From contig CM022671.1 in NCBI GenBank assembly GCA_012295275.1, forward strand, positions 29,567,750-29,631,749: 64,000 bases of DNA. The letters run 5' to 3'. Position 1 is the stretch's first letter; every line of letters starts with the position of its first letter. The notes beneath the pieces were generated by a model. It worked only from the letters and a program-made list of their open reading frames with translations, made no database searches and was not told where the DNA came from. Source of the DNA: Chrysomallon squamiferum. Its lineage: Eukaryota; Mollusca; Gastropoda; Neomphalida; Peltospiridae. This document shows positions 119 through 8,129 of this stretch, piece by piece. The position numbers and the translations under genes were made by a program.

Positions 119-8129
<8,011 letters not shown>

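Follow-up and report, generated by a model that had tools for sequence, protein, structure and literature searches.

A thioredoxin reductase gene of the scaly-foot vent snail Chrysomallon squamiferum carries an in-frame UGA codon on either side of its catalytic Cys codon, which raises the question of how the first of these, at a position that is usually glycine, is read: as selenocysteine (Sec), as a stop, or as another amino acid, or whether the base is representative of the species at all. The gene lies in a 64-kb stretch of DNA analysed as a whole (hereafter the window, to which all positions without a prefix refer). It is of the TXNRD2 (mitochondrial) type and has 17 coding exons, 16 of them inside the window (Table 1); exon 1, 0.9 kb 5' of the window, reads MAAPMKRWMLRKLLSRYLKIPKLDQIHCSYC, a product near the Gigantopelta aegis protein, with the N-terminal MAAPM... 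sequence found in the Gigantopelta TXNRD2. AG acceptors are present at all 16 exons in the window, and GT donors at 15 of the 15 exons that are spliced on. When joined, the window exons encode an unbroken run of 487 sense codons that ends in ...ISPLVT and is followed by UGA-Cys-UGA-Gly-UAA. The best homologue among the matches listed (the best 120 of 4653) was the G. aegis TXNRD2 with 79% identity, and the top named homologues among them were TXNRD2 proteins. Among the PDB matches, mouse TXNRD2 scored best (669.7 and 669.3 bits), against 615.1 bits for TXNRD1 and 527.4 bits for TGR. By these homologue and PDB match scores, TXNRD2 is a closer match to the predicted enzyme than either TXNRD1 or TGR. 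Its translation contains both the CVNVGC centre and the HPT motif, and 3 of 159 near-invariant residues are altered, compared with 4 of 160 in G. aegis and 1 to 13 in 13 other homologues (13 of the other 119 in the alignment). An earlier note on this DNA had assigned the gene to the thioredoxin reductase family and described everything except its tail as intact and constrained; the homologues, the mouse TXNRD2 match and the CVNVGC centre bear out the former statement, and the residue counts in the snail and Gigantopelta support the latter.

Table 1 Positions of the TXNRD2 exons, the two UGA codons and the downstream RNA elements
Feature	Position	Strand	Remark
TXNRD2 exon 1	G000:C7:29566772-29566865		upstream of the window
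TXNRD2 exon 2	119-190	+	spliced to exon 1 in phase via an acceptor at 117-118
TXNRD2 exon 3	562-618	+	
TXNRD2 exon 4	843-987	+	carries the CVNVGC redox motif
TXNRD2 exon 5	1546-1620	+	
TXNRD2 exon 6	1809-1884	+	
TXNRD2 exon 7	2357-2419	+	
TXNRD2 exon 8	2751-2821	+	
TXNRD2 exon 9	3200-3219	+	20 bases
TXNRD2 exon 10	3692-3783	+	
TXNRD2 exon 11	4315-4486	+	
TXNRD2 exon 12	5041-5186	+	
TXNRD2 exon 13	5488-5583	+	
TXNRD2 exon 14	6249-6341	+	
TXNRD2 exon 15	7045-7116	+	
TXNRD2 exon 16	7390-7487	+	
TXNRD2 exon 17, coding part to TAA	8000-8129	+	one genome match; one TGA within
First UGA	8115-8117	+	where the Gly-Cys-Sec-Gly tail has its first Gly
Second UGA, the usual Sec codon of the family	8121-8123	+	paralogue has the same TGC TGA GGT
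Candidate UGA-proximal recoding stem	8118-8184	+	begins one base downstream of the first UGA
Candidate type II SECIS element	8784-8848	+	AUGA at 8793, AAA and apical mini-helix, UGAU ending at 8838
AATAAA	8870-8875	+	first poly(A) signal past the stop, beyond the SECIS

Several other features were seen in the window. A 32-base phrase, GTGGCCCAAAGTCTCACATCCAACCTGCAGTT, occurs both in a TXNRD2 intron (4166-4197) and beyond the gene (10279-10310) and is probably an interspersed repeat. On the minus strand, an Orai calcium channel exon lies at 47527-48042 (Pfam Orai-1, E 9.8e-49), an open frame of 298 amino acids at 30086-30982 matches DUF716 weakly (22.9 bits; the cut-off is 25), and 17373-18584 holds an uninterrupted open frame of 403 amino acids with no Pfam match and, by eye, a probable membrane stretch. 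Long open frames on either strand at 57999-58487 are spurious and stem from a long dinucleotide array there.

Positions 8112-8129 read ACC TGA TGC TGA GGT TAA in frame with the last exon, so that the tail is Thr-UGA-Cys-UGA-Gly-stop in place of the Gly-Cys-Sec-Gly that is usual for TXNRD2, with the Cys, the Sec codon, the Gly and the stop all retained. The frame of the spliced exon confirms that the extra UGA is in frame and one codon before the Cys, as the earlier note had it. It is the sole in-frame stop ahead of the Sec codon in the spliced frame, and it is UGA, not UAA or UAG. On the sequence, the snail gene is a variant of TXNRD2 that departs from it at the tail. A paralogue of the TXNRD1/TGR type, located on the same contig at C7:34.04 Mb and with no glutaredoxin-like motifs found upstream of it to tell TXNRD1 from TGR, ends in GGA TGC TGA GGT TAG. 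Since the paralogue keeps GGA at the site, a one-base change from GGA to TGA would explain the TXNRD2 codon; the ancestral codon before the catalytic Cys-Sec pair was probably GGA, which accounts for 22 of the 48 Gly codons of the TXNRD2 gene. Single-base changes can create a stop at 219 points in the 487 sense codons, 65 of these stops being UGA, and none of the 65 falls within the last five sense codons. If the ancestral codon was GGA, the chance that a random nonsense change or error would fall on this codon, two ahead of the Sec codon, is about 1 in 220. As a separate observation, the two genes share TGC TGA GGT TA from the start of the catalytic Cys codon (8118-8135 in the window; 3744-3762 of L018 in the paralogue) and, once a single additional base of the paralogue is skipped, also ATCCCTG around and beyond the stop, a likeness that extends past the stop although the paralogues are old.

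The TGA at this site might have arisen as an error in assembly or polishing, or be a rare allele that the single sequenced specimen happened to carry, in which case the species would have the ordinary Gly-Cys-Sec-Gly tail. The published C. squamiferum assembly, as described in PMC7142155, derives from one specimen with 1.38% heterozygosity and from early Nanopore data, and the GGA of the paralogue fits the same explanation. Only one copy of the locus was found in the genome searched (404,604,130 bases in 22 contigs): DNA and protein searches placed the last TXNRD2 exon at a single locus among the best candidates scored. A second genomic copy was rejected on both counts. The protein search gave only one match among the best candidates scored, and 48 of the 49 matches in the DNA search lay outside the locus and were 29-76 bases long; 47 of these 48 fell in parts of the query outside the coding exon, mostly an A-rich run, and the remaining one covered query positions 10-59, spanning the intron end and the first exon bases. 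Nor did the window yield an alternative last exon or a second tail, as the pattern GGNTGYTGAGGN had no match there and a tblastn search with the last exon returned only 8001-8114 below an E value of 1. Against an unrepresentative base, the published assembly is reported to have gone through five rounds of Racon correction and two of Pilon correction using Illumina reads (PMC7142155), the 17-exon gene contains no frameshift or other stop, no run of at least five equal bases occurs within 60 bases of 8115, and it is improbable that a chance error would fall on precisely this codon. We regard this explanation as rather unlikely, and we infer that the UGA is present in the snail population.

If the UGA is genuine, its reading as Sec would depend on a SECIS element in the message. 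Rfam SECIS_1 matches the candidate in Table 1 on the plus strand at 16.1 bits, where the gathering score of 35 is not reached, and all the features of a type II element are present, namely the AUGA/UGAU core, the apical AAA, the additional apical mini-helix and the location in the 3' UTR. Other Rfam matches were weak or to simple repeats. Of the 65 ATGA...TGAT candidates that the two strands of the 64 kb contain, it was the lowest in energy, clearly so for the apical part (-8.9 versus -6.9 kcal/mol for the runner-up) and narrowly when flanks were included (-23.9 versus -23.3 kcal/mol); in 20 random single-strand 64-kb sequences, 5 of 766 candidates were as low as its flanked energy. The 121 bases at 8755-8875 folded with a z score of -4.45. 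In the minimum free energy (MFE) fold, 24 base pairs form below the core, and no long neutral decay is therefore evident there; helix II, in contrast, is weak, being interrupted by an unpaired 3x4 stretch. The second UGA lies 670 bases from the SECIS core. No further SECIS was found at E values up to 10 in 7900-12500, a search size at which the match at 8784-8848 itself falls under the reporting limit. The TXNRD2 element is the weakest of the three found in the genome by SECIS_1 score, with 27.7 bits for that of the paralogue, which lies about 700 bases downstream of the gene, and 33.4 bits for that of SELENOP. As the latter two are also below 35, the Rfam gathering score looks too strict here.

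A second structure lies beside the first UGA. The MFE of 8112-8190 was -23.4 kcal/mol, with z scores of -2.3 and -2.6 in two runs, and 1 of 300 random 79-nt windows was as low; no comparable stem is seen in the corresponding region of the paralogue (z +0.9). By its placing, the stem resembles a selenocysteine redefinition element (SRE) and is a candidate for one.

The same genome offers evidence that Sec is used at closely spaced codons. A SELENOP homologue on contig C6 (G000:C6:11792022-11793633; L024 2022-2144 and 3010-3633) contains 1 + 8 in-frame UGAs and has a SECIS at L024 4043-4106. The exon with the single UGA matches SelP_N (E 1.9e-10), and the later exon holds the other eight, including three pairs spaced UGA-N-UGA. 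The frame of the later exon was set by a SelP_N match (22.5 bits, cut-off 23.2) together with TAA or TAG in the other two frames, with the qualification that, over its last third and as far as the stretch extends, one of those two frames lacks TAA and TAG as well. At L024 6682-7068, a Sec-rich frame was rejected as a part of SELENOP, another frame there reading as ordinary coding sequence. The paralogue and the multi-UGA SELENOP, each with a SECIS, indicate a Sec-using genome, and UGAs one codon apart should be readable in it. The earlier note had proposed a SECIS candidate in the 3' UTR and the decoding of both UGAs; the SECIS_1 match, the lowest energy of the 65 candidates and the fold z score favour the first proposal, with the reservation that helix II is weak, and the second is biologically plausible in view of the SELENOP of this genome and of the experiments reported in PMC3737529. 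Its interpretation as a whole is partly supported.

We next compared 276 homologues (the best 120 of 4653, 36 more of 4921 and 120 of 500) at the position of the first UGA. Gly occurred in 202, Thr in 51, Ser in 12 and Ala in 6, with Glu, Asn and Asp in one each; two were left uncounted, namely a sequence whose C-terminus is unrelated and a fragment that stops short of the position. Ser or Thr is thus found in 63 of the 276 listed homologues, and in 58 of the 276 it is followed by Cys-Cys-Ser (Cys-type tails). The presence of these residues suggests that a side chain is tolerated at the position and is compatible with activity. None of the 276 listed homologues ends at the first-UGA codon or right before it, and none has a tail of the Thr-Sec-Cys-Sec-Gly type. 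With the C-terminal piece as a protein query, no close relative appeared among 120 of 500 matches listed, the best having 67% identity, and no two-Sec thioredoxin reductase or Sec-Cys-Sec tail was reported in the literature searched, which lay largely outside the subscription journals. The snail TXNRD2 tail would be a new variant of a known enzyme, if it is real and decoded. The occurrence of non-Gly residues at the position in the listed homologues would also suit a reading of the first UGA by a near-cognate Trp, Arg or Cys tRNA instead of Sec, giving Xaa-Cys-Sec-Gly, and structured RNA next to a UGA is generally known to go along with read-through. Because the message has a SECIS, however, Sec-tRNA is the likely reader and there is no sign of another tRNA, which makes this reading very improbable.

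The reading that we prefer, with a probability of roughly 0.5, is that Sec is inserted at both UGAs in a share of the chains, which then end in Sec-Cys-Sec-Gly. The Gly codon (probably GGA) before the catalytic Cys-Sec pair would have mutated to UGA in a working TXNRD2 selenoprotein gene, and the Sec machinery would be recruited by the single type II SECIS, perhaps aided by the stem after the first UGA. In some chains, Sec would be inserted at both UGAs to give ...Leu-Val-Thr-Sec-Cys-Sec-Gly, and other chains would end at the first UGA (...Leu-Val-Thr) without the redox tail. The selenol of the new Sec would adjoin the catalytic Cys on its N-terminal side, between Thr and Cys, and we infer that such a tail is active. 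According to the results given in PMC3737529, Sec is inserted with similar efficiency at every codon tested in human TR3 (TXNRD2), TR1 and TGR take it up at the natural site or close to it but poorly or not at all farther upstream, and the SECIS determines which positions accept Sec in TR3 as opposed to TR1 and TGR. SelL is described as carrying two Sec residues two residues apart with one SECIS (PMC3316567). Given the positional tolerance of TR3 and the insertion of two Sec in SelL, a GGA-to-UGA change at this site may be read partly as Sec and not stop every chain; such partial reading would make a nonsense change less harmful here than elsewhere. Several points count against double decoding. 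In DIO2, a second UGA is reported to serve mostly as a stop (PMC3316567), and in the work described in PMC3737529 human cells made no Sec protein from a Euplotes TR1 message that has seven UGAs. The yield should be lower with two UGAs in succession, the SECIS is the weakest of the three in the genome, and the absence of such a tail among the 276 listed homologues would likewise speak against it. More tentatively, and with our confidence somewhat below even, we suggest a natural Sec-Cys-Sec-Gly tail, with Sec on either side of the catalytic Cys and made via a single SECIS and a UGA-proximal stem, as a new active-site chemistry that an ancient enzyme would have acquired in a vent animal.

Termination at the first UGA would mean that the TXNRD2 redox tail has been lost recently, as a fixed or segregating null allele, leaving a tail-less flavoenzyme or a gene on its way out, with the TXNRD1/TGR-type paralogue taking over thioredoxin reduction. 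UGA is a stop by default, the tail of the paralogue is intact, and helix II of the TXNRD2 SECIS is weak compared with the two other SECIS elements in the genome, all of which would agree with such a loss. The retention of the near-invariant residues argues against it, as does the low chance (about 1 in 220) that a random nonsense change would hit this codon. The codons after the first UGA, TGC TGA GGT TAA, and the basal SECIS stem are intact as well, which is weak evidence against a loss. At rough substitution rates, about one neutral change is expected in 12 bases over about 66 million years, and because only such slight decay is expected, the intact codons prove little; the Gigantopelta split is dated to about that time (PMC7736800). 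In addition, truncated thioredoxin reductases are reported to be able to harm cells (SecTRAPs, PMC2268967). On balance, termination is unlikely, although a serious contender.

If both UGAs are Sec, a second Sec would have been gained at the usual glycine position, beside a textbook Cys-Sec active site, and the gene would provide a natural test of how a single SECIS serves closely spaced UGAs. Termination at the first UGA would instead mean that the Sec tail of TXNRD2 has been dropped in an animal, with the remainder of the enzyme intact.

Compared with animal TXNRD2 (TR3), the snail gene is alike in its full-length sequence, CVNVGC centre and 3' UTR SECIS, but has UGA for the Gly before the Cys. 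It resembles SelL (UxxU) in having two close UGAs and one SECIS, although SelL is a different protein and the spacing in the snail would be U-C-U. SelW with two Sec residues in amphioxus is described as another multi-Sec protein outside SELENOP and is again a different protein (PMC3473315); set against such proteins, one of the Sec positions in the snail TXNRD2 would be new to its family. The SELENOP of the same genome has the UGA-N-UGA spacing three times and uses the same Sec machinery, whereas nine UGAs were seen in it and its SECIS is stronger (33.4 bits). DIO2 is similar in having an extra in-frame UGA, which is located after the Sec codon and is reported to act mainly as a stop (PMC3316567). 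In the snail, by contrast, the extra UGA precedes the Sec codon, and the tail can form only when it is read.
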